Below are positions 5,419-17,743 of a stretch of 21,978 nucleotides of DNA, one piece after another. The notes under the pieces were generated by a model. The model saw only the letters and a program-made list of their open reading frames with translations, was not told the DNA's origin and did not search any database. The DNA is from a virus: the IMG/VR virus record IMGVR_UViG_3300046535_000459, positions 1 through 21,978 of that record; one strand, written 5' to 3'. The stretch's first letter is position 1, and the number at the start of each line of letters is the position of its first letter. A program made the position numbers and the translations under genes.

Positions 5419-5841
5419 CTAGCCGATGATGGCAGCTGAGCTGATCTCGATTTCGACCCGGCCCTCTTCAGAGCTTTCCGAATCGACTGCTGGCGCTTTG
5501 GCCATTTTCAGGGTGCCCTGGTAGACGATGGGTTCTCCGTAGGGCACCTCATTGATGTCGAGCGGCTGCTTGGTGACCGTGACCTGGCCTTTGCCGGCCC
5601 GGTCGAACAGCGTCTTGATGATGCTGCCGTCGCGGTCCAGGTCATAGTACCGGCTCACGATGACGTTGCTGACGGTCCTTGAACCGCCCAGCGAAATCTC
5701 CGGAGCCATGCCACCCGGTTTGTACTTTTTCTCGTTGGAATCGACGTCCCCGCCGTCCATTTTATCCCAGATGCCGTAGTCGTCTCCGTCAACCGCGACG
5801 GAGACGCTGTACATGTCCTGTCGGCTTGGCTTGTCAGGCAT
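5419..5841 (-). CDS. Tail tube protein
   Basis: The product is 140 aa, directly after the sheath gene and overlapping its TGA by one base (TGATG). It is beta-rich, begins with a Val-Ser-Val strand around an Asp-rich loop (VDGDDYGIWDKMDGGDVDSN), and has the strand/loop pattern of contractile-tail inner tube proteins (PhageTube family). Gene order sheath, tube, chaperone, tape measure is diagnostic for myoviruses. It should polymerise as hexameric rings inside the sheath. The start is the only ATG fitting the coupling. Confidence 0.9.
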   Translation of the reverse strand: MPDKPSRQDMYSVSVAVDGDDYGIWDKMDGGDVDSNEKKYKPGGMAPEISLGGSRTVSNVIVSRYYDLDRDGSIIKTLFDRAGKGQVTVTKQPLDINEVPYGEPIVYQGTLKMAKAPAVDSESSEEGRVEIEISSAAIIG

Positions 5842-7280
5842 CAGACTGCCTCCGTCGTTGCGACCTTGGACACGTAGATCGACACGGTCTCACCGAACGG
5901 CGACATGCGCACCTCGATGACTGCGTTGATCTGGCGTCCTGCGATCGTTGTCGGAGTGTTGACCTGTGCTCCAGTGTCCACGAACGCCGCTTCATCGAAC
6001 GTATGCCCGTACAGAGCATCATTCGCGAAGTAAGGCAACAGCATTCCGCGAAGCTCGCCATTGAACTTCGCGAATGTGATGCCTTTGCCGTCGATCTGCT
6101 CGAACAGATACTTGCCGGCAATGGCGTCCGCTTTCGCTGCGATCTCCATGTAGAGTCGAGCGTTGGTGGCCAGAAGCCACGTTGCGTCCGTGACTCCGTT
6201 TACCAGCGTCCTGAACCCCATCTGAGTCGCCACTCCATTTCGCATATTCGCGATGTTGACTCCGCCGTCATAGAGCAGGTCTTTGTCGCTGTCGCTGAAT
6301 TCAGGTTTCGACAGTTCGACAGTGTAGTTGCTCTGACCGTAACGGTCGCCTGCCGCCGCGATGTTGGGGCTGAACCCACCAGCGTGATTGCGAGCGATGA
6401 TGCCGCAGACGACACAGCTTGGCGGCACCGTCCGGAACGTTCCTGCTGCGATCCCCGGGACCACTCGCCATGCGCCGAACATCGCACCGTACCGCGCCTG
6501 CGCAAGCGCCCGGTCGGTTGCGGCCATGGAGATCAACGTGGCAGCCGTTGCTGTATCTGTTCCGTCCAGAATGGCGAAGCGGTTCCTGGCTTCGGCATGT
6601 TCCAGCAACTGTTTGTGCGCGGTCGTCGTGGCCCGTCCGGGCATCGTTACCTGCCCTGGACCTTCCGACTTGCTGATGACGTTGAGGGCTGTCAGCCACT
6701 CGGTGTCGGTCGCGCTGGCGTGATCGTCTGCACCTTCCGTCAGGGTGAAGGACCCGTTTTTGGGATCGCCTTTGCCCAGGTCTTCCACTCTGATGTACTT
6801 CGACTTCGACGCCCACGCGATGGCGGCTGTGTTGTCGACCAGTTCAGGCGAGACTTCCAGAACCTTGGTGCCTTCCTTGACCGTGATGATGTAGTTGCCG
6901 CCGACTTCGCCTGCTTTGATTTCGACGGTGATGTTGTTGGCCCATTCGCCTGGCGAGACCGCCAAGACTTTCAGGGTGTTTTCGCTTGCGCCGTTCTGGA
7001 GCGTTTTGTTGGCCACTTTCGCAGCGGGTCCAACTACCCGGACCCACTTGAAAATTGCCCCGCCCTCTCGGAAGAACACGTCTGCGGCATCATACAGAAT
7101 GCCGTATGCGACTCGTTCTCCGCCCTGTTCTACGAACTGCTGTAGACTGTGGGCCTCAGCTACCGCTCCAGTCGGTCCACGGTCGGCCATGCCGACCGCG
7201 AACATCGTGCCAGACTGAATCGGCGCGGAGCGCGAAACCGGCGACTGCCGCGAGATGACTTGACTTTTGGGAAAAGGCAT
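5841..7280 (-). CDS. Contractile tail sheath protein
   Basis: The product is 479 aa, typical of sheath subunits. Near the N-terminus is the hallmark GTMFAVGMADRGPTGAV segment, resembling the usual opening of phage sheath proteins. The middle has the domain with a conserved Pro-Pro-Ser-x-x-Val-x-Gly-x-x-Ala-Arg segment followed by Gly and Ala-Ala-Ala-Gly, near residues 285-315. The C-terminal domain contains the Thr-Leu-Val-Asn-Gly strand and the RMSPFGETVSIYVSK ending. The ATG has a good ribosome binding site (AAAGGAG, about eight bases upstream). It forms the outer contractile tube and shows the virion is a myovirus. There is no sign of truncation. Confidence 0.96.
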   Translation of the reverse strand: MPFPKSQVISRQSPVSRSAPIQSGTMFAVGMADRGPTGAVAEAHSLQQFVEQGGERVAYGILYDAADVFFREGGAIFKWVRVVGPAAKVANKTLQNGASENTLKVLAVSPGEWANNITVEIKAGEVGGNYIITVKEGTKVLEVSPELVDNTAAIAWASKSKYIRVEDLGKGDPKNGSFTLTEGADDHASATDTEWLTALNVISKSEGPGQVTMPGRATTTAHKQLLEHAEARNRFAILDGTDTATAATLISMAATDRALAQARYGAMFGAWRVVPGIAAGTFRTVPPSCVVCGIIARNHAGGFSPNIAAAGDRYGQSNYTVELSKPEFSDSDKDLLYDGGVNIANMRNGVATQMGFRTLVNGVTDATWLLATNARLYMEIAAKADAIAGKYLFEQIDGKGITFAKFNGELRGMLLPYFANDALYGHTFDEAAFVDTGAQVNTPTTIAGRQINAVIEVRMSPFGETVSIYVSKVATTEAV

Positions 7281-7283
7281 CCG

Positions 7284-7622
7284 CTAGTCTCCTTTCTCGT
7301 TCTTCGCCTCGACGGCAGCGGTGACGTCATCGGCGGTAATCCGCCCGTCTTTGCCGGTGCCTGTTACGTCAGTCAGGTCGATGCCCGACTCATCTGCGAG
7401 CTTGATTGCTGCATCCGTTGCGCCCGCGTCAGCTGTTGAGAGCTCCTCGTCGGATCGACCATCCGCAGCCTGGTCGTCCTTTTCCGAGACGAACACGCCT
7501 TCCTCGATTCGCTCCTTGTTGAAATCGTTGTCCGTGTCGAGATCGGTGATGACCTCGCCAGGGGCAAACGTCCGGCCATCGCCGTCTGTCTCGGCGTGCG
7601 TACTCTGCACCCGGTAGTTCAT
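7284..7622 (-). CDS. Small protein with C-terminal E3-binding-like (PSBD-like) domain
   Basis: The product is 112 aa, coupled to the upstream tail terminator by an ATGA overlap and lying three bases before the sheath gene. Residues 1-48 are a small beta domain with Phe-Ala-Pro-Gly-Glu-Val-Ile and a Gly-Val-Phe-Val strand. Residues 49-70 are an acidic linker. Residues 72-105 match the peripheral subunit-binding domain of 2-oxoacid dehydrogenases, with the signature GTGKDGRIT followed by an Asp-Asp-Val helix. The same architecture recurs in the gene at 9267-9833. I infer a virion or assembly role at the head-tail joint or tail top. Binding to a host dehydrogenase is possible but unsupported. 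Confidence 0.8.
   Translation of the reverse strand: MNYRVQSTHAETDGDGRTFAPGEVITDLDTDNDFNKERIEEGVFVSEKDDQAADGRSDEELSTADAGATDAAIKLADESGIDLTDVTGTGKDGRITADDVTAAVEAKNEKGD
7336..7400. repeat. Diverged copy 1 of a 65-bp duplicated domain sequence
   Basis: This stretch encodes the E3-binding-like core of the 112 aa protein. Aligned by hand without gaps to 9319-9383 it matches at 48 of 65 positions, including a shared run CCGTCTTTGCCGGT. The similarity indicates duplication of a domain within the virion gene cluster. Confidence 0.7.
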
Positions 7623-8236
7623 GCTCCAACCTCGTCTTTCTTCTCGATTGTGATGTTGGCCTCGACTGGGTTATCAAATTCAGTTCCCAAACCGTATGGG
7701 TCAGCGGACGGTTCCGCGATGCCGAGACGTTTGTTGACCACGTTGTGGACTTCGACCCGGAAGGTGACTTGGACTGCCATCACAGCATGATCCTCCCGCT
7801 CGGGCGGTTCATCGTACCGCTCGTCCTCATACTCGACGGCGGATGATATGCCACCCAAGCCTTGCTGCTGGAGCATCAGCTGCCGGACAACCGGCCCGTA
7901 GATGCGCGCCAGCTTTCGCGTATTGTCGCGGTTGTTCGCCTCCACGATGACGGCAACGCCCAGATGGAACTTCGCCCGGTAGGTGCCATCACCTTTCATC
8001 GCAGGTTCCTCGGCCAAACCCGGCGACACAATGACGACCACCGGCGTGTCCTCTGCGGCCCAGTTCCTGAACTCGTTGACTGTCGTGTAGTTCTTGATGA
8101 TCGGCAGGGTCCGGGGTTTTAGTCCGCGCTCACGCTCTGCCTCGGCCAAGTAGTCTTCGATGAAGGCTTCCAAAGTTTCCTGCGCAGCCGCCTCGATCTC
8201 GTCCGGCCCAATATTTGATCCGAATAGATCGCTCAT
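7619..8236 (-). CDS. Tail terminator protein (probable)
   Basis: The product is 205 aa and lies between the Mu G/gp10-like gene and the sheath region, where the tail terminator or tail completion protein is expected. It overlaps both neighbours by ATGA. Residues 10-40 form an amphipathic helix. Residues 64-120 form an alpha/beta core with strand VVVIVSPG, strand FHLGVAVIVEANN and a following helix, which is the usual tail terminator pattern. The C-terminal third has the strand MAVQVTFRVEVHNVV. The role, capping the tail tube and mediating head joining, follows from position and fold pattern rather than a sequence signature. Confidence 0.72.
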   Translation of the reverse strand: MSDLFGSNIGPDEIEAAAQETLEAFIEDYLAEAERERGLKPRTLPIIKNYTTVNEFRNWAAEDTPVVVIVSPGLAEEPAMKGDGTYRAKFHLGVAVIVEANNRDNTRKLARIYGPVVRQLMLQQQGLGGISSAVEYEDERYDEPPEREDHAVMAVQVTFRVEVHNVVNKRLGIAEPSADPYGLGTEFDNPVEANITIEKKDEVGA

Positions 8237-8709
8237 ATCCCCACCAAGAATCCTTGAAGCTCCTTGATGTATTTCCGCCTCTGGATCTCCGTGAAGTCAA
8301 CAGGCGGGCGAGCAGGACGGGTTCCGTCAGCGGATGGGCCCATGTGGTAGGCGCCATAGTCCACCAGCGACTTGAACTCAAACCCGTGCGGGTCGATGAC
8401 CACCACCTGGTCGCTGTTGGCCTCGTCGGTGAGCGAAGTCATGAGCCGGTCGGTGGCCCGCATCGTCTCAGTCCGCAAGCCCATCGCCGCCTTCCGTTCG
8501 ATGGTCACCGGCTTGTCTGGGGGCCAGCCGCCCGACATCGAAGCACCCTCGGTATCGAACTGCTCCTTGATGTCCTCTTTCATCAAGTGGACGATGGTAT
8601 GCCAAGCCGGTGAAGCATCAGCTGCCCGCGCAGAGAAGCGGAGTAGTTCGCGCTCGATCTGCTTGTGACCGTACACGCTGAAGGTGACAACTGGTCCGCT
8701 GCCGGCCAT
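8233..8709 (-). CDS. Mu G-like / HK97 gp10-like tail completion protein
   Basis: The product is 158 aa. It has the pattern of the virion morphogenesis (Mu gpG) and HK97 gp10 families: an N-terminal strand VVTFSVYG and helix, a central GGWPP segment followed by a Lys-rich helix and Arg-Leu-Met-Thr-Ser-Leu, then VDYGAYHMGPSADG-type loop and PARPPVDFTE, close to the conserved Pro-Arg-Pro-Phe motif. The family sits at the head-tail junction. The ATG overlaps the upstream stop by one base (TGATG), with AAGG as a likely ribosome binding site. It is followed by the tail terminator with an ATGA overlap. Confidence 0.8.
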   Translation of the reverse strand: MAGSGPVVTFSVYGHKQIERELLRFSARAADASPAWHTIVHLMKEDIKEQFDTEGASMSGGWPPDKPVTIERKAAMGLRTETMRATDRLMTSLTDEANSDQVVVIDPHGFEFKSLVDYGAYHMGPSADGTRPARPPVDFTEIQRRKYIKELQGFLVGI

Positions 8710-9191
8710 CAGAACCTTCTCCGTCCCACGCGGCTCGAGACCGGGAAGCTACCGCTCGGCATCTCTTCGCCTAGCGGTCCAGTACCATCGCCGCCTTCCG
8801 CGCCGGGGCAGGTATCGCGGTATTGGTCGAGCATGTCCTTGAGACCGTCTTCGTATTCCTCTTTCAGAGTTTTGTACGGCGACTGGTCGGTGCGAAGTTG
8901 ATTGGCGAAGTAGGTCAGCTCAACGCGCATCGCCGCGCGGATCGTTGCGACTTCCTCTGCAAGTTCGATTGGTCCGTCAACGCAGATGTCGTGTGCCTCG
9001 CTGACGCGGAGCTTGTCCGCAATGCGGCTCGTCGCCCACGCGCAGATTTCTTCGACCTGCGGCAACGTCGGCGTCGTCGTGTCGTCCCAGGTGCCGGAGC
9101 CGCCGAACTGACCCTTGGTCCGGGTCGGCAAAAGCGCAGCCACACCTGTCGGGGTGGCCTCCCAGGCAAATGGCGTTGGATATTCGGGCAT
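8709..9191 (-). CDS. Head-tail connector protein (probable)
   Basis: The product is 160 aa, first in the connector block after the capsid genes. It is largely helical in the middle (ICAWATSRIADKLRVSEA and following), like phage head-tail adaptor proteins that bind the portal. The C-terminus is Gly-rich and ends in a basic VGRRRF tail. Two starts are possible, GTG at 9194 and ATG at 9191. I prefer the ATG because GGAG lies six bases upstream of it and only three from the GTG. A 72-base gap containing a strong hairpin separates it from the gene upstream. Confidence 0.72.
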   Translation of the reverse strand: MPEYPTPFAWEATPTGVAALLPTRTKGQFGGSGTWDDTTTPTLPQVEEICAWATSRIADKLRVSEAHDICVDGPIELAEEVATIRAAMRVELTYFANQLRTDQSPYKTLKEEYEDGLKDMLDQYRDTCPGAEGGDGTGPLGEEMPSGSFPVSSRVGRRRF

Positions 9192-9211
9192 CACATTCTC
9201 CGACCGGCGTT

Positions 9212-9242
9212 GCGGGAAGCGGCTCTGGCCACCGCCTCCCGC
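9212..9242 (-). terminator. Strong intergenic stem-loop (attenuator- or processing-like)
   Basis: On the minus strand GCGGGAGGCGGT pairs with GCCGCTTCCCGC around a seven-base loop. This gives a 12-bp stem with two G-U pairs and no mismatch. It lies in the 72-base gap between the capsid-side E3-binding-like gene and the connector gene, one of the widest gaps here. No T-tract follows on either strand, so it is not a classical terminator. It could attenuate or stabilise the mRNA. Confidence 0.5.
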
Positions 9243-9266
9243 GTTGTCCGGTTCCGTAGCAAGGAC

Positions 9267-9833
9267 CTACTCCTGGCCCTCAGCTTGGGCGTCGATATGC
9301 GCTTCAACGTCGCCCTTGGTGATCCGACCGTCTTTGCCGGTCCCCTCGACCTCAGCGAGATCAACGCCAGACTCCGTTGCGAGCGTCTCAGCCCCAGCGG
9401 TGTACTCGACGTCAACGATCTCGCCGTTGTCCTTTTCCGGAGCAGGCTCGCCTTCTCCCGCGACTTCCGCGAGAAGCTCGGCCAGACCGCCTCTTGGGTC
9501 GTTGCCCGTCGCCGTGTTCTCGGCGGCGAGCAGCGGCTGTGCAAGCTCCGGGTCCGTTCTTGCGACATTGACGATGTCGGGCACGGTGGCTTCTGAAACC
9601 CAGTCCACCAGCTCTTCCTCGTTCATCGCAGCGACGTCCTGAGCTTCCTCAGCCTCGACTGCTTCGTCTTCCTCGGTCACGAACGCGCCCATATCTTCGC
9701 CGTACTTGACGACCTCTTTGGACACGTCGATCTCATCACCCCGCTTGGCCGAGCAGCGCCGGTAGCCCTTCGTACCGGCAGACGTGAACTCCTCGTCCCA
9801 GTTGAATGATTTGATTTTGACGGTTCTCTTCAT
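9267..9833 (-). CDS. Capsid-adjacent protein with C-terminal E3-binding-like (PSBD-like) domain
   Basis: The product is 188 aa, directly after the major capsid gene, with a good ribosome binding site (GGGAG, seven bases from ATG). Residues 1-55 form a beta-rich domain ending in a Gly-Ala-Phe-Val-Thr-Glu strand. Residues 56-125 are acidic and helical, with a Pro-Glu-Leu-Ala-x-x-Leu-Leu-Ala-Ala-Glu segment seen in small proteins following capsid genes of actinobacterial phages. Residues 149-182 carry the peripheral subunit-binding signature GTGKDGRIT and the Gly-Asp-Val helix. The N- and C-terminal parts parallel the 112 aa protein at 7284-7622, so these look like paralogues, this one with an extra middle domain. 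Its role is unknown; a head completion or decoration function is inferred. Confidence 0.8.
   Translation of the reverse strand: MKRTVKIKSFNWDEEFTSAGTKGYRRCSAKRGDEIDVSKEVVKYGEDMGAFVTEEDEAVEAEEAQDVAAMNEEELVDWVSEATVPDIVNVARTDPELAQPLLAAENTATGNDPRGGLAELLAEVAGEGEPAPEKDNGEIVDVEYTAGAETLATESGVDLAEVEGTGKDGRITKGDVEAHIDAQAEGQE
9319..9383. repeat. Diverged copy 2 of a 65-bp duplicated domain sequence
   Basis: This encodes the E3-binding-like core of the 188 aa protein and is the partner of 7336-7400, with 48 of 65 positions identical by hand alignment. Both copies encode ESG-x-DL-xx-V-x-GTGKDGRIT. Confidence 0.7.
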
Positions 9834-9858: not shown

Positions 9859-10755
9859 TCAGCCCGCCAGTTTTTCGACTTTGAGGACCGCGAACGGGTT
9901 GTTGACGAACATCACCGGGCGCACACTCGTCTGCACCCAGGTCCGCTCGGTCTCTGGCTCGCGCCAGGTCTCTGTGCCAAGCGGTTTCTCGACACGCATC
10001 TCACCGACCTGTTGCTGGGCGACCGCGTAAGAGGTCCCAGCCGTGACCCGGTTCGACACGTAGATGTCGATCCCCAACTCAGCGAGGAGCTCACGGAGGT
10101 TCGCCAGACCGTAGATCGTGACGAGCCGCGTGTACTCCTGCGGGTTGAGCAGCCAGAGGTCATAGACGATGCCCAGTTCGTCTTCCTCCGCCAGCTGCTG
10201 CGTGTGCGCGAAATCGAACGCCGGGAATTTGTCCGAGTTGGACTGACTCGATCCCCCGACGACAACTGTGGACCAGTTGTTTCCGTTCGTTTTCTGACCG
10301 CTCGCAGCGATGGATTTCTCCAACTCCGCGATGGCGCGCTGATTGACCTTTCGGATGATGGTGTTGGTCAGCTGCCTGACCTTGTTCGTGAACGCCGCCG
10401 ACTTGTTGCGTTCCCGCGCCTCGTCGGTGATGAACACTTTGCCGCCCCACTTCTCGACTTCGGCGACTGATGGAGCCGGTCGCTCTGCCGTGATGAGTGG
10501 GAACTCGCCGCCCGGCGAAACGCGCCCAACGTCCCGTTTGGCGTAGATCTGATTCAGTTCGGTGACGTCATAAATGACAGCACCGCCTGTCACGCCGCCC
10601 GCGCTTGCGAACACGCGGTCAACAATGAACCGCTGGAGTGACAGGTCCATGATCATCGCCGTGATGCGGGTGGGCTGTTCCAGCATCGTATCGACGGTGA
10701 TGAGGTTGCCAGATACTTCTGGCGGACCCAGTGGATGGCTTGGATTGACGTCCAT
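9859..10755 (-). CDS. Major capsid protein
   Basis: The product is 298 aa, directly after the decoration protein and protease/scaffold, where the major head protein is expected. It has HK97-type features: an extended N-terminal arm, a TAERPAPSVAEVEKWGGKVFITDEARERN segment of the E-loop/spine type split here only for description around residues 90-118, a long helix rich in Asn/Lys (QLTNTIIRKVNQRAIAELEK), and a C-terminal domain ending with FVNNPFAVLKVEKLAG. It carries the strongest ribosome binding site of the window, AAGGAGG eight bases from ATG, fitting the most abundant virion protein. No N-terminal scaffold is present; scaffolding is supplied by the upstream protease gene. Confidence 0.93.
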   Translation of the reverse strand: MDVNPSHPLGPPEVSGNLITVDTMLEQPTRITAMIMDLSLQRFIVDRVFASAGGVTGGAVIYDVTELNQIYAKRDVGRVSPGGEFPLITAERPAPSVAEVEKWGGKVFITDEARERNKSAAFTNKVRQLTNTIIRKVNQRAIAELEKSIAASGQKTNGNNWSTVVVGGSSQSNSDKFPAFDFAHTQQLAEEDELGIVYDLWLLNPQEYTRLVTIYGLANLRELLAELGIDIYVSNRVTAGTSYAVAQQQVGEMRVEKPLGTETWREPETERTWVQTSVRPVMFVNNPFAVLKVEKLAG

Positions 10756-11203: not shown

Positions 11204-12651
11204 CGCGAGTCACGCTCCTTCGTGATCGTGCCGGTGTTCCCGTTCCGCGCGGCAGAGATTCGACTCTGCTCACCAGGTGAGAGCCAGCCGTCATCGTATT
11301 GGCTGGCGTCGACACCGGTGTCGCCACCGGCTCCTTCGCTGCCATGCTCTTCGACCGGGACCAGGTTGGCCTCCAGCGCCTCGATGGACGCCTTGGTACC
11401 CTCCGGGTCCTTGTCGTACAACTTGACCCAGTGATCCTTTCGGTCTCTGGGGAACTTGCCGGCCTTGACGGCAGACTCGATCAGATCATCACGATCCTTC
11501 TGATCCTGCCTGGCCTTGGCTTCGCGACCGGCCTTGGCATCGCTCTGGAGACGTTTCAACGTCCCACGGTCGATGCTTGCGGTGGTCTCCTCCTCGGAGT
11601 CGTCGCCCTCAGGCGTCTCCTCCTCGGTCTCCTCCTCCTCGTCGTCGTCGCCATCGCCATCACCGTCGCCGTCATCGGCGGGTGGTGTCTCTGGCGTCTC
11701 CTCAGAGGCTCGGAGCTCTTTGATCTTTGCCGTGACCTCCTCGTCAGAGGCATCCTCGGCCAGACCAAGGGATGCGCGCAGCTCTTTGCTGTCCACGCTG
11801 GTCTCCTTTTCCTCGTTGTCCGGCCTGGATTCAGACCGTTTTGCATATACGGCGACCGGATGGCCACCGCCCGCCGCACCTAAAGCGGCTGCGGCTTTTT
11901 CTCCGCCGACATCAACGTACACGATCTGTACCTCGATTGGGTCGGAGAAAGTGATTTCGTCACCGCTGATCGAGAACGGAACCCGATACAGGTTCCCCTC
12001 GTCGTCATCAACGATGAGGTCAGTTGGGTCCATGCGGACGGCGCGAATCCACCACCACATCTGCTCCGCACCCAACGACTCATAGAAGGTTCGCTTGACG
12101 TCCTCGACTTCGACGGACGCCGTGATGGTCTTGACCATCCCACCGCCGACTGCTTTGGCGATGATCTTCTCGCCCGCCGTGACCTCGATGCCCTCCGGCA
12201 CCTCAGCGCCGTACAGATTCTTGAGGTCATCGAGCGTACTCACACCCGGAGCGACAACGCCCAGCAGCGACACGGCGGTGATCAGCAGACCGTGCTTCTT
12301 TCCGGTCGCCGTTTCCTGATTGAACATGCCCTCGATGGAGCGCGACGGATAAGCGGACGGCATCAGCTCAGCAAGCCAGGACGGCACGCCAACGTAGTCG
12401 CCATAGATCGTTTGGCCGTTATCGCCAACGGCCATATTGATCACCTTGCCAAAACAAGGCTCCCCGTCGCCCAGGTCCGACTCGTGACCGATCTTCAGAC
12501 GCGGTGACTGCACAGCCGGGTCATCCTGCGCCGCGACCGCTGCCGCCAGATGCTCGGTGGTGAACGTCGTCTTGCCGGACGCAAGATCGTACTCGCCGGT
12601 GGACAGGATCGGTACGTTTGGAATCGTCACGATTGATGGGGTGTCGCTCAT
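11200..12651 (-). CDS. Capsid maturation protease and scaffold, Mu I-like
   Basis: The product is 483 aa. Residues 1-145 resemble the Mu gpI-like protease: PSAYPSRSIEGMF around 98-110 with candidate Ser104, a His at 120, and SLLGVVAPGVSTLDDL at 128-143. Residues 179-249 are an extra alpha/beta domain containing Trp-rich MWWWIRAVRMDPTDLIV, which I recall from proteases of actinobacterial phages. Residues 317-357 are an extremely acidic Asp/Gly/Glu tract. Residues 360-435 form a charged scaffold-like helix ending with FPRDRKDHWVKLYDKDPEGT, the conserved C-terminal motif of this family. It should cleave itself and guide capsid assembly. The ATG overlaps the portal stop as ATGA. The catalytic residues are inferred from motif position. 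Confidence 0.88.
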   Translation of the reverse strand: MSDTPSIVTIPNVPILSTGEYDLASGKTTFTTEHLAAAVAAQDDPAVQSPRLKIGHESDLGDGEPCFGKVINMAVGDNGQTIYGDYVGVPSWLAELMPSAYPSRSIEGMFNQETATGKKHGLLITAVSLLGVVAPGVSTLDDLKNLYGAEVPEGIEVTAGEKIIAKAVGGGMVKTITASVEVEDVKRTFYESLGAEQMWWWIRAVRMDPTDLIVDDDEGNLYRVPFSISGDEITFSDPIEVQIVYVDVGGEKAAAALGAAGGGHPVAVYAKRSESRPDNEEKETSVDSKELRASLGLAEDASDEEVTAKIKELRASEETPETPPADDGDGDGDGDDDEEEETEEETPEGDDSEEETTASIDRGTLKRLQSDAKAGREAKARQDQKDRDDLIESAVKAGKFPRDRKDHWVKLYDKDPEGTKASIEALEANLVPVEEHGSEGAGGDTGVDASQYDDGWLSPGEQSRISAARNGNTGTITKERDSR

Positions 12652-14870
12652 AGGGTCGGAGCCTCCTCACCGTAGATCGCGACCAGCGTGCCTCGGCATC
12701 GCTCGCCGCCTTCACACTCTGCAAAACCGCCGCCAGGGTAATCAGCCTCAGCTTCATCGACGCTGCTGAATTCAGTGCCGTCCTCGGCGGAACAAGCCGA
12801 ACAAGTGTTCTCATCCAGAAGCTCGCTGGAGTAGATGCGCTTGGCGTCGTTGCGACGCATCGTGAGCTTGCGACCCGCGTTCATCGCGGTGTTCATCGCC
12901 CCGCTCACCTGCATTTTGACCCGTTCTTTCACCAGGTCATTCAGGTAGGTACGGGTCGCAGCAGCCACGTCCTTCGCGGCGGCGACCGGGCTGGTGAGTT
13001 TTATGGCGCGGTTGGCGGCTGCGCTGGACAGCTCTCGTGTCAGAATGTTGCCGACGCCTTGCGCCCGCGCTGTCAGCGAGTCATCCAACTCGGATACCTT
13101 CGGCTTGGTCGGAGAGACACCTTGCGATTCGGCCTCTGTCGTCGCTTGGCTGATGCCCTCGTCTGCCATTTCCTGCATCGCGGCGAGGATCGACTCGTGC
13201 GTGGTGTCGTCAACGGACAGTTCGGAGAGCTTCACCAGATCGCCCTTGGCTTGGACGATGAGATCGTGTAGTTCGTTGACCTGAGTGGTCTGTAGTGCTT
13301 TGACCTCATCGAACAGCTTGTCGCGTCGCTCCGTCCATTCGTTGTCCAGTCGAGCGAAGTCTGTGCTGGCTTCGATCTCGTGCTGGTAAGGCTGACGGCG
13401 CAGCGCTCGATCCGGCAAGGACACCGGCGAGGGAGCATCATCCGGTGCCGCCTTCACGACACCAGAGCCGCGCCGTCCCGAACCGGCTTTTGCCGGCTCA
13501 GATGGCGGAGGTTGTACGGGCGGTGGAACGGTGGGCTGCTCCGCTTCCTTGGCTTCACGCTCTTCTTCTTTGACTTTCTTCGCTTCTTCTTCGGCCCGTA
13601 CAGCCTCAGACTTGGGAGCCAAGTTCCGCGATTTGCGGATGAAGGATTCCAGTTCAGGATCGACGGTGAGCAGACCTTTGTCGACAAGCTGGGTAAGCTC
13701 GAGAGTCGGCGGGTCCTCGTGATTGGACCGGGTGTAGGCCAGACGCGGTGCCGGCTCGTCTTCGCCGTAGTTCCAATCAACCCAATCCTCAATCATGTGC
13801 TCGTTGAAAGTGTCAGTCACCCAGTCCGCGATTGCCTCCTGAGCGAACCCGAAGAAGTCCAGGAAGCTCTCGCCCAGTGCCCGCGCTCCGGTCTGGCTTT
13901 GGCCGAGCATCACGAACATCATCATGAAGCTCCGGGCCATCTCCTCATTCTGAAATTTCATGGAGGCGACAGTGTCCGGTGTACTGCCCTCGACGCCGAC
14001 CAGACGGAGTTTGGCTCCGTAGGGACCAGCGCCGCCCGACTCGTCGCCGCCTCGGAATTCTTGAGCCAGCTGGTCGAGCGCGTCGATGAGCTCCTGGCTC
14101 GCTCCTTCCGGAGCCTCAAACCACGGAACCCCCATGCCTGTGCGCTCTTGCTTCCGCGCGTCGATCCGCATCAGCATGTCCTTGATGATGAAGTTTTTGA
14201 ATACGCTCCGGAGCAGAGACTTGCCAACCCAGTTGGCGCCCTCCTTGTCCCATACGTAGTGGAGCAGCGCGTTGACGGGGATGCCTTCCGCTTGCGACGA
14301 GCCGAACCCCAGCTTGCTGTACTGCTTGATCTCTTGTAGCCCGCCGTCGTTGGCTGTGATGATCTGGCTCACCGTCCATGGCGGACGCGGCGCGATCTTC
14401 CGGATGTGGTAGAGATCATCGCCGTACTTGGTCTGATCAACCTCCATCACCTGCTCGAAATCGTAGAAGCCATATTTCAGAGCCTTCAACGCTTCGCTCA
14501 GGTGACGACGCCAAGTGAAGCGGTTGCGCGTCCGGCCGATTTGGAAGTTGTCTTCCTGACCCTTTATGGGCACCTTCAGCTCTCGGCTCAGCTGCTGAGT
14601 GATCTCATCACTCGCATCGCCTTGGTCCAGCGTGTAGCGGAACCGTTCGATGGGCAGGATGGTGCCGGCCATCAACCCCTTGACCTGAGCGTCCTGGGAG
14701 TACATCTTGTCATAGACGTAGACGGACACCGGGAAGCGAAGCTCCGGTGTGAACTCCATCTCGTCAATGATCTGGCCCCAGGAGAGCAAGCCAGTGCCGC
14801 CACGACCGGCGAGGAAGTTAGCTTCAACTCCCTGTTCGACCGTGGGAGGCTTGGTGACCGGCACAGCCAT
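12648..14870 (-). CDS. Portal protein fused to a MuF-like morphogenesis domain
   Basis: The product is 740 aa. Residues 25-415 form a DUF935/Mu-gp29-like portal: GLMAGTILPIERFRYTL near 65-81, a KIAPRPPWTV segment, the WDKEGANWVGKSLLRSVF segment at 207-224, and the helix SFMMMFVMLGQSQTGARALGESF. Residues 420-480 are a Glu/Lys- then Pro-rich linker. Residues 500-740 resemble the MuF domain, with long helices and a C-terminal cluster of Cys690, Cys693, Cys719 and Cys725 around SAEDGTEF. The portal forms the packaging ring; MuF proteins enter the head or help assembly. The fusion is longer than a usual portal and replaces the separate gpF gene. The ATG follows the holin-like TAG after one base. 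Confidence 0.93.
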   Translation of the reverse strand: MAVPVTKPPTVEQGVEANFLAGRGGTGLLSWGQIIDEMEFTPELRFPVSVYVYDKMYSQDAQVKGLMAGTILPIERFRYTLDQGDASDEITQQLSRELKVPIKGQEDNFQIGRTRNRFTWRRHLSEALKALKYGFYDFEQVMEVDQTKYGDDLYHIRKIAPRPPWTVSQIITANDGGLQEIKQYSKLGFGSSQAEGIPVNALLHYVWDKEGANWVGKSLLRSVFKNFIIKDMLMRIDARKQERTGMGVPWFEAPEGASQELIDALDQLAQEFRGGDESGGAGPYGAKLRLVGVEGSTPDTVASMKFQNEEMARSFMMMFVMLGQSQTGARALGESFLDFFGFAQEAIADWVTDTFNEHMIEDWVDWNYGEDEPAPRLAYTRSNHEDPPTLELTQLVDKGLLTVDPELESFIRKSRNLAPKSEAVRAEEEAKKVKEEEREAKEAEQPTVPPPVQPPPSEPAKAGSGRRGSGVVKAAPDDAPSPVSLPDRALRRQPYQHEIEASTDFARLDNEWTERRDKLFDEVKALQTTQVNELHDLIVQAKGDLVKLSELSVDDTTHESILAAMQEMADEGISQATTEAESQGVSPTKPKVSELDDSLTARAQGVGNILTRELSSAAANRAIKLTSPVAAAKDVAAATRTYLNDLVKERVKMQVSGAMNTAMNAGRKLTMRRNDAKRIYSSELLDENTCSACSAEDGTEFSSVDEAEADYPGGGFAECEGGERCRGTLVAIYGEEAPTL

Positions 14871-16774: not shown

Positions 16775-17743
16775 CTAGGACGCTACCAACTCGTACATGA
16801 AGCACGTTTGTTTTTCATTGACGGTTCCGTTGCCAACGTTGAGCTTTTCCGCCCGGAGCTTTGCGGTGTGTTCCGCTGCCGTAAGGGCAACCTCCCAGAC
16901 CTGCACCACGGTGCCCTGCCAGTTCCACTGTTCGGCTTTCGCGAACCCGTCTGCCTCGGCATAGCGCGTCTGTTTCGCACCGTCCACATCCAGGTAGCCG
17001 CGAGCTTGCGTGCTACCTGCCGACGAGCCGCCCAGCTGAAAGTCAAAGACCCCGGTAACGCGGAGCTTGCTCGGCACCGATGGAGTGAGGGTCAGCGTCG
17101 CACCCGGAATGTCCGCCAACGCTCCAAGGGTCAGCGTTCCGGTCGCCGCGACTATGCCGGTCGTCGGTTTGAACTTCGGGCTGGTGACGGCTCCGTCCGC
17201 GAGCTTCGCGGTAGTCACAGCCAGGTTCGCGATCTTCGCCGTCGTGATCGCTTCTTCCGCGAGCTTCGCGGTTTCAACTGCAAGCGCAGCGAGCTTCGTT
17301 GGCGTGACGGCTCCTTCAGCGAGCTTGGCAGCTGTGACAGCTTCAGCGGCTATCTTGGCTGCCGTGATAGCGGCGGTTTTGATCTTCGCGGATTCGACCG
17401 CTTCTTCACCGATCTTGGCAGCGGTGACGGCCAGATTGGCGAGCTTCGCTGTTTCGATGGCCAGCGCCGCGATCTTGCCTGCCGTGATTTTGTTTTCGCC
17501 TATCGTGAGGGCACCGGCGCTCGAGAGCGTGGCGTCGCCGGACAGGGTCTTGTAGAGCGCCGCTCCTGTGCCTTGCGCGACGATCAGCTGGCCGGCAGTG
17601 CCGTCCGCCAGTTCGGCTATCGGAAAGTCATCAAGCAGTTCCTCGATCTGGAGCACGACACCGTACAGATCGGTCGGCACGTCGTCCAGCTGATTCGATT
17701 CGGGTGCTTTGAACCCGTATTTGGGAGTTGTTTTGTAACTCAA
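16775..17743 (-). CDS. Fibre-like virion protein with decapeptide repeats and C1q/TNF-like C-terminal domain
   Basis: The product is 322 aa from TTG at 17743, which overlaps the terminase stop as TTGA and has GGAGG five bases upstream. Residues 1-84 form an N-terminal attachment domain. Residues 85-194 are eleven decapeptide repeats of the form A-V/I-T-x-A-K-I/L-A-x-x with Lys at every tenth residue from 90 to 190. Residues 195-322 are a beta-rich domain (VTGVFDFQLGGSSAGS, YLDVDGAKQTR, VWEVALTAAEHTAKL) resembling the trimeric jelly-roll heads of phage fibres. It is probably a trimeric tail or head fibre that binds host or surface sugars. Its place next to terminase rather than the baseplate makes a head fibre a real alternative. 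Confidence 0.8.
   Translation of the reverse strand: MSYKTTPKYGFKAPESNQLDDVPTDLYGVVLQIEELLDDFPIAELADGTAGQLIVAQGTGAALYKTLSGDATLSSAGALTIGENKITAGKIAALAIETAKLANLAVTAAKIGEEAVESAKIKTAAITAAKIAAEAVTAAKLAEGAVTPTKLAALAVETAKLAEEAITTAKIANLAVTTAKLADGAVTSPKFKPTTGIVAATGTLTLGALADIPGATLTLTPSVPSKLRVTGVFDFQLGGSSAGSTQARGYLDVDGAKQTRYAEADGFAKAEQWNWQGTVVQVWEVALTAAEHTAKLRAEKLNVGNGTVNEKQTCFMYELVAS
17162..17491 (-). repeat. Eleven tandem 30-bp units encoding decapeptides
   Basis: Codons 85-194 of the fibre gene repeat every 30 bases. On the plus strand the units are marked by GAGCTTCGCGG- and GATCTTGGC-like words. Units are diverged, but the reading frame and the Lys codon position are fixed. Copy number could change by recombination. 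Confidence 0.85.

Follow-up and report, generated by a model that had tools for sequence, protein, structure and literature searches.

Two small proteins within a contractile-tail gene module

The window, by which we mean the whole stretch of DNA analysed here, is itself a virus record of 21,978 bases and holds, on its minus strand, genes for the structural proteins of a contractile-tailed phage (Table 1). Along this strand, genes for a capsid protease, a decoration- or scaffold-like protein and the capsid protein are followed by a gene that we call gpB, a 161-aa gene and the neck protein gene, and then by a 205-aa gene, a second gene of interest, gpA, and the sheath and tube genes. An earlier note on this DNA had placed two copies of one C-terminal domain after the capsid gene and before the sheath gene, respectively, and this is what is found, gpB directly following the capsid gene and gpA directly preceding the sheath gene; the gpA start codon and the stop of the 205-aa gene preceding it overlap by 4 bp. 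The two genes thereby stand on either side of the connector set, which the note had rightly described as bracketed by them. Searches with domain and family profiles returned no clear family for the 161-aa gene, a putative connector gene by virtue of its position in a slot corresponding to that of Mu gp36, and no significant family for the 205-aa gene, which from its own slot may encode the tail terminator. When genome contigs were searched with the capsid protein for a host, no relative was obtained; an actinobacterial host is hinted at solely by the likeness of the capsid to those of Gordonia and Mycobacterium phages.

Table 1. Positions of the genes and protein domains considered (window coordinates unless a locus is named)
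Feature	Coordinates	Strand	Assignment and remarks
Tail tube	5419..5841	-	phrog_5102 3.1e-17
Tail sheath	5841..7280	-	phrog_23 3.4e-25
gpA, 112 aa	7284..7622	-	N-domain (fold suggestive of YqbF), flexible linker, PSBD; directly before and adjoining the sheath gene
gpA PSBD, residues 66-110	7293..7427	-	PF02817; 3rnm_E TMt 0.79, rmsd 0.9 Å
gpA N-domain, residues 1-50	7473..7622	-	Small alpha/beta; AF2 pLDDT about 95
205-aa gene	7619..8236	-	Putative tail terminator; kept in 44 loci
Tail completion / Neck1 protein	8233..8709	-	phrog_26 1.5e-9
161-aa gene	8709..9194	-	Putative connector gene, following gpB and preceding the neck gene; kept in 43 loci
gpB, 188 aa	9267..9833	-	N-domain (fold suggestive of YqbF), helical domain, flexible linker, PSBD; immediately follows the capsid gene
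gpB PSBD, residues 142-187	9273..9410	-	PF02817; 3rnm_F TMt 0.88, rmsd 0.9 Å
gpB helical domain, residues 54-128	9450..9674	-	Conserved A-E ... P-R motif (alignment)
gpB N-domain, residues 1-52	9678..9833	-	AF2 pLDDT about 95
Major capsid protein	9859..10755	-	phrog_1650 5.6e-69; PF25209 8e-16
gpB with tandem PSBDs	L003:4786-5517		
gpB with tandem PSBDs	L004:1444-2139		
gpB with tandem PSBDs	L005:6836-7534		
gpB with tandem PSBDs	L006:4362-5081		
L106 PSBD protein, first	L106:3233-3802		PSBD at N-terminus
L106 PSBD protein, second	L106:4908-5180		

Elsewhere in the window, a protein of 740 aa at the portal position (12648-14870, minus strand) has a cysteine-containing C-terminal stretch (CSACSAEDG ... 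CEGGERCRG); judged from the sequence, its C-terminus resembles a minor head domain of the MuF type that has been fused to the portal. A 322-aa protein (16775-17743, minus strand) contains short repeats of about 10-11 residues (AAKLAEGAVT / TAKIANLAVT type) resembling those of some tail-fibre or surface proteins.

The C-terminal domains and their surface

Both gpA and gpB contain the C-terminal segment ESG[IV]DL..V.GTGKDGRIT, from which the earlier note had recognized a peripheral subunit-binding domain (PSBD; PF02817, the E3-binding domain), and the assignment is firm. Indeed, residues 71-100 of gpA (45.5 bits, E = 8.7e-12) and 150-177 of gpB (43.1 bits, E = 5e-11) score above the curated Pfam cut-off of 23.7 bits, and PDB sequence searches with the two proteins returned almost only the PSBDs of dehydrogenase E2 chains. 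AlphaFold2 models based on aligned relatives from viruses (mean pLDDT 90 for gpB and 86 for gpA) predict the two-helix PSBD fold for the C-terminus of each protein; over 40-47 residues, the deviation from solved PSBDs is about 1 Å. Foldseek gave PSBD structures as first matches for both domains; with VIA, the gpA domain reached Z 7.2 at 1.2 Å over 47 residues (best Z for gpA, 7.9) and the gpB domain Z 8.3 to 9h1n_A. A match of gpA to the tape-measure family TMP_3 was discounted as weak (E 0.009, below cut-off).

The likeness of the two domains extends to the DNA: the 48 matches over 65 positions counted by hand in the earlier note were recovered exactly, and over 200 codon shuffles the best match averaged 35.6 and never exceeded 39. 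At the protein level, BLASTP aligned gpA and gpB with 25/45 identical residues (E 5e-13). The term paralogues used for the two proteins is appropriate for their C-terminal domains, but not for their N-domains, which belong to a common fold class but are not significantly similar in sequence (hhalign probability 9%). Regarding the origin of the two PSBDs, the 36-codon cores of gpA and gpB are 63% identical in nucleotides, no closer than orthologues (64% for gpA of the window and of L003), and a tree of the 36 residues neither supports nor excludes a duplication within the phage.

The small N-terminal beta domains attributed to both proteins are predicted with high confidence (Table 1). Both are about 50 residues long and, with Z-scores of 3.5-4.9, match GINS-type domains and the N-domain of Bacillus subtilis YqbF (PDB 2hjq). 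The comparison with 2hjq gave Z 3.5 (2.7 Å over 45 residues) for gpA and Z 4.6 (1.6 Å over 40 residues) for gpB, values also attained by unrelated small domains, and GINS rows gave Z about 4 for gpA; a search of PDB sequences using the profile of the gpB family did not find YqbF. The matches are suggestive of a YqbF-like or GINS-type fold for the modelled N-domains. The helical domain of gpB, which has no counterpart in gpA, occurs in the gpB family with or without a PSBD. In both proteins the PSBD is preceded by an acidic linker of low pLDDT, predicted to be disordered (residues 130-139 in gpB, 55-62 in gpA), and domain profile searches detected no lipoyl or acyltransferase domain in either of them.

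Recruitment of E3 by the PSBD of an E2 chain relies on charged side chains in helix 1, described as an electrostatic zipper (PMC9974300). We compared these positions, numbered after Bst, in 13 E2 and 39 phage PSBDs. Position 135 is basic in 9/13 E2 domains versus 8/39 phage domains, position 136 in 13/13 versus 11/39, and position 139 in 5/13 versus 2/39, with an acidic residue at the latter in 19/39 phage copies; gpA has I/K/D and gpB E/T/T at the three positions. Over 36 residues, the mean net charge is -3.7 for the phage domains (-5 for gpA, -6 for gpB) and +2.7 for the E2 domains, a difference whose Mann-Whitney p value (about 6e-7) is only indicative since both sets are of limited size and include related sequences. 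The basic residues of helix 1 being mostly gone, the phage PSBD has retained its fold and its loop, whereas the binding surface known from E2 is lost.

These data bear directly on the suggestion of the earlier note that a host dehydrogenase could be docked, i.e., that the PSBDs mimic E2 and bind the E1 or E3 component of a host 2-oxo acid dehydrogenase, either redirecting metabolism or bringing the enzyme into the virion. The domains are true PF02817 members in which the G-[TS]-G-x-x-G-R loop is kept, including Arg156 in 36/39 phage copies, as expected for such a mimic. However, the zipper with E3 is formed by charged side chains of helix 1 (PMC9974300), whereas the phage copies mostly have no basic residue at positions 135 and 136, they are acidic where E2 domains are basic, and the gpA and gpB genes sit among structural genes. 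This reading is therefore disfavoured and we regard it as very improbable.

The acidic character of the domains also weighs on a second alternative. The C-domains of YqbF and of Haemophilus HI1506 resemble nucleic-acid binders. By analogy with these proteins, to which gpA and gpB are similar in architecture (N-domain, linker and small helical C-domain) and, by a suggestive match to 2hjq, in the fold of the N-domain, the PSBD could be a nucleic-acid-binding module comparable to the SAP, LEM or Rho_N types, in contact with packaged DNA either at the portal or inside the capsid. With net charges of -5 and -6 over 36 residues, such contacts appear improbable, although somewhat less so than a mimicry of E2.

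Occurrence in capsid relatives and in other phages

A scan with the capsid protein gave 80 virus loci and a capsid tree of 81 tips. In nearly all these loci a gpB-family gene lies directly after the capsid gene and terminates after the helical domain, and in many of them a gpA-family gene precedes the sheath gene, some loci having no gpA. In most relatives gpA consists of the N-domain alone (57-108 aa, mostly about 60 aa). PF02817 was detected in 5/32 aligned gpB-family and 4/21 aligned gpA-family proteins, all from the clade of the window, and the PSBD-bearing loci form a single clade of the capsid tree (5 tips, support 1.0). Both genes carry the domain in all four clade members in which both can be read (the window, L003, L004 and L005), so that the co-occurrence in related phages about which the note had asked is borne out; the fifth locus, L006, shows only gpB and ends before gpA. 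Outside the clade, in the 17/17 loci with an aligned gpA, both genes are present and neither has a PSBD. The simplest account is that the clade ancestor gained the domain on both genes; being one evolutionary event, this joint presence does not by itself demonstrate a joint function. Of note, gpB of L003-L006 contains tandem PSBDs, of which the first is degenerate, its loop reading GTGDEDAV or GTGEDDEI in place of a sequence with GR, and yet conserved among them. The PSBD codons are under purifying selection, with a pooled pN/pS of 0.45 for gpA and 0.44 for gpB. A scan of viral contigs with gpA as query gave no matches.

Scanning viral contigs with the PSBD alignment extended this survey to 37 loci, which, outside the clade of the window, mostly encode a protein 86-190 aa long that has its PSBD at the C-terminus. 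Among 24 ORFs upstream of the PSBD genes, 11 matched phrog_617, 11 phrog_10 (largely the same ones), 2 phrog_283 and 2 phrog_371; as these capsid families overlap, we estimate that about 14-15 of the 24 are capsid proteins. PSBD proteins directly follow capsid genes of phrog_617/phrog_10 (loci of the L093, L110 and L119 types) and of phrog_283 (L097, L114), and lie near those of phrog_4523 and phrog_371 (L106, L121). Loci of the L093 type have a terminase gene first, then those for protease-capsid, PSBD protein and portal. Most of the other phage loci have a single PSBD gene within the stretch examined.

L106, a virus of 100 kb, is a second, unrelated lineage with two PSBD proteins flanking connector-sized genes: its capsid gene is followed by genes for a 330-aa protein, a PSBD protein of 189 aa, proteins of 156 and 168 aa, a PSBD protein of 90 aa, a 479-aa protein and a minor tail or tape-measure protein. 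The capsids of L106 and of the window have no BLAST match to each other, both matching the broad PF25209 model. The 479-aa protein (L106:5180-6619) was considered as a sheath and rejected, as it has BNR-type repeats and no similarity to the sheath of the window; its BNR/YCF48-type repeat segment (PSII_BNR above cut-off) is unusual in a tail region.

In a collection of deposited phages, PSBD matches were limited to host-type E2 sequences. The matches labelled as 'Listeria', 'Enterococcus', 'Staphylococcus', 'Pseudomonas Y12' and 'Acinetobacter' phages are E2 genes or E2-like fragments and not structural genes. Several of them sit in unannotated wastewater assemblies (OR846616, OR847274, OR849203, OR849149 and OR845008), where the E2-type frames, two of them long (416 and 432 aa), are probably host contamination. 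The open literature searched on PSBDs and phages contained no description of a PSBD in a phage structural module.

This distribution allows weighing a third alternative, namely that the PSBD is a passive tail for solubility or spacing, or an assembly-chaperone handle required only during the building of head or tail, in each case with no partner in the mature virion. The fact that most relatives do without a PSBD would fit, as would the acidic and predicted disordered linkers. A merely passive tail accords poorly, however, with a folding motif that both proteins have conserved despite deep divergence (pooled pN/pS of about 0.45), and with the recurrence of the module in unrelated capsid modules. 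We consider this explanation unlikely, although its chaperone-handle form may hold.

A proposed docking role and its known counterparts

A kept fold and a lost surface are most economically, and plausibly, explained by a docking module that has acquired another partner. We favour, with a probability of about 0.5, that the PSBDs of gpA and gpB serve as docking modules in head-tail assembly or joining, for a partner that we postulate; the function is placed at this stage by position, the gene slots matching those of Mu gp35 and gp38. In such a mechanism, gpA and gpB would be small structural-module proteins occupying the slots of Mu gp38 and gp35, respectively, and would be present in the virion. 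Their N-terminal domains may be seated on the capsid, connector or tail, while the PSBD on its flexible linker could act as a tethered hook, as in the E2 chains of 2-oxo acid dehydrogenases, and, while head and tail are being joined, dock a partner that is encoded by the phage or present in the virion. As the two PSBDs are found jointly in one clade and their genes flank the connector set, they may share one partner.

The same domain beside the capsid genes of several unrelated uncultured phages is probably a reused protein-docking part. A broader scenario is more tentative and, to our mind, rather doubtful: the PSBD would have been recruited several times independently as a virion docking module beside the capsid, and two or more unrelated lineages would have it as a pair around the connector genes that shares a partner and couples head and tail assembly.

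Compared with E2 PSBDs, those of gpA and gpB share the profile, the two-helix fold with its extended loop, the G-[TS]-G-x-x-G-R motif and the mounting on a flexible linker, but they are acidic, have lost the basic surface of helix 1, stand in proteins with no detected lipoyl or acyltransferase domain and are encoded within a phage structural module. YqbF and HI1506 consist of two domains joined by a linker. With YqbF, the phage proteins may have in common the small alpha/beta N-domain, as its fold match to 2hjq suggests, and with Mu gp35 (FluMu_N, PF17891), gpB shares the position directly after the capsid gene; in contrast to the YqbF, HI1506 and Mu gp35 type, the C-terminal module of gpB and gpA is a PSBD. 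Likewise, Mu gp38 (DUF2635, PF10948) is a small protein encoded directly before the sheath gene, as is gpA, and the gpA relatives outside the clade are small too (mostly about 60 aa), whereas gpA in the clade of the window adds a PSBD. The comparison of slots is positional, as no profile similarity links the proteins: gpB did not match PF17891 (Mu gp35 itself, 1.8e-10) nor gpA PF10948 (Mu gp38 itself, 2.2e-22), and hhalign gave probabilities of 0.4% for the gpB N-domain with Mu gp35 and 1.7% for gpA with Mu gp38.

Mu gp35 and gp38 are probably structural, gp35 being possibly connector-related, and both were left unresolved by a near-complete cryo-EM analysis of Mu (PMC11915804). In the phage studied here, a domain with an established function in hooking protein partners is present in both of these Mu-like slots, and since this domain is small and stable, pull-down experiments offer a direct route to the binding partners of the slot proteins. 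While the PSBD itself is well known, its presence in phage structural modules, which recurs with different capsid families and in two cases involves a pair, is new, and a domain of core metabolism is thus seen to recur in the structural modules of phages.
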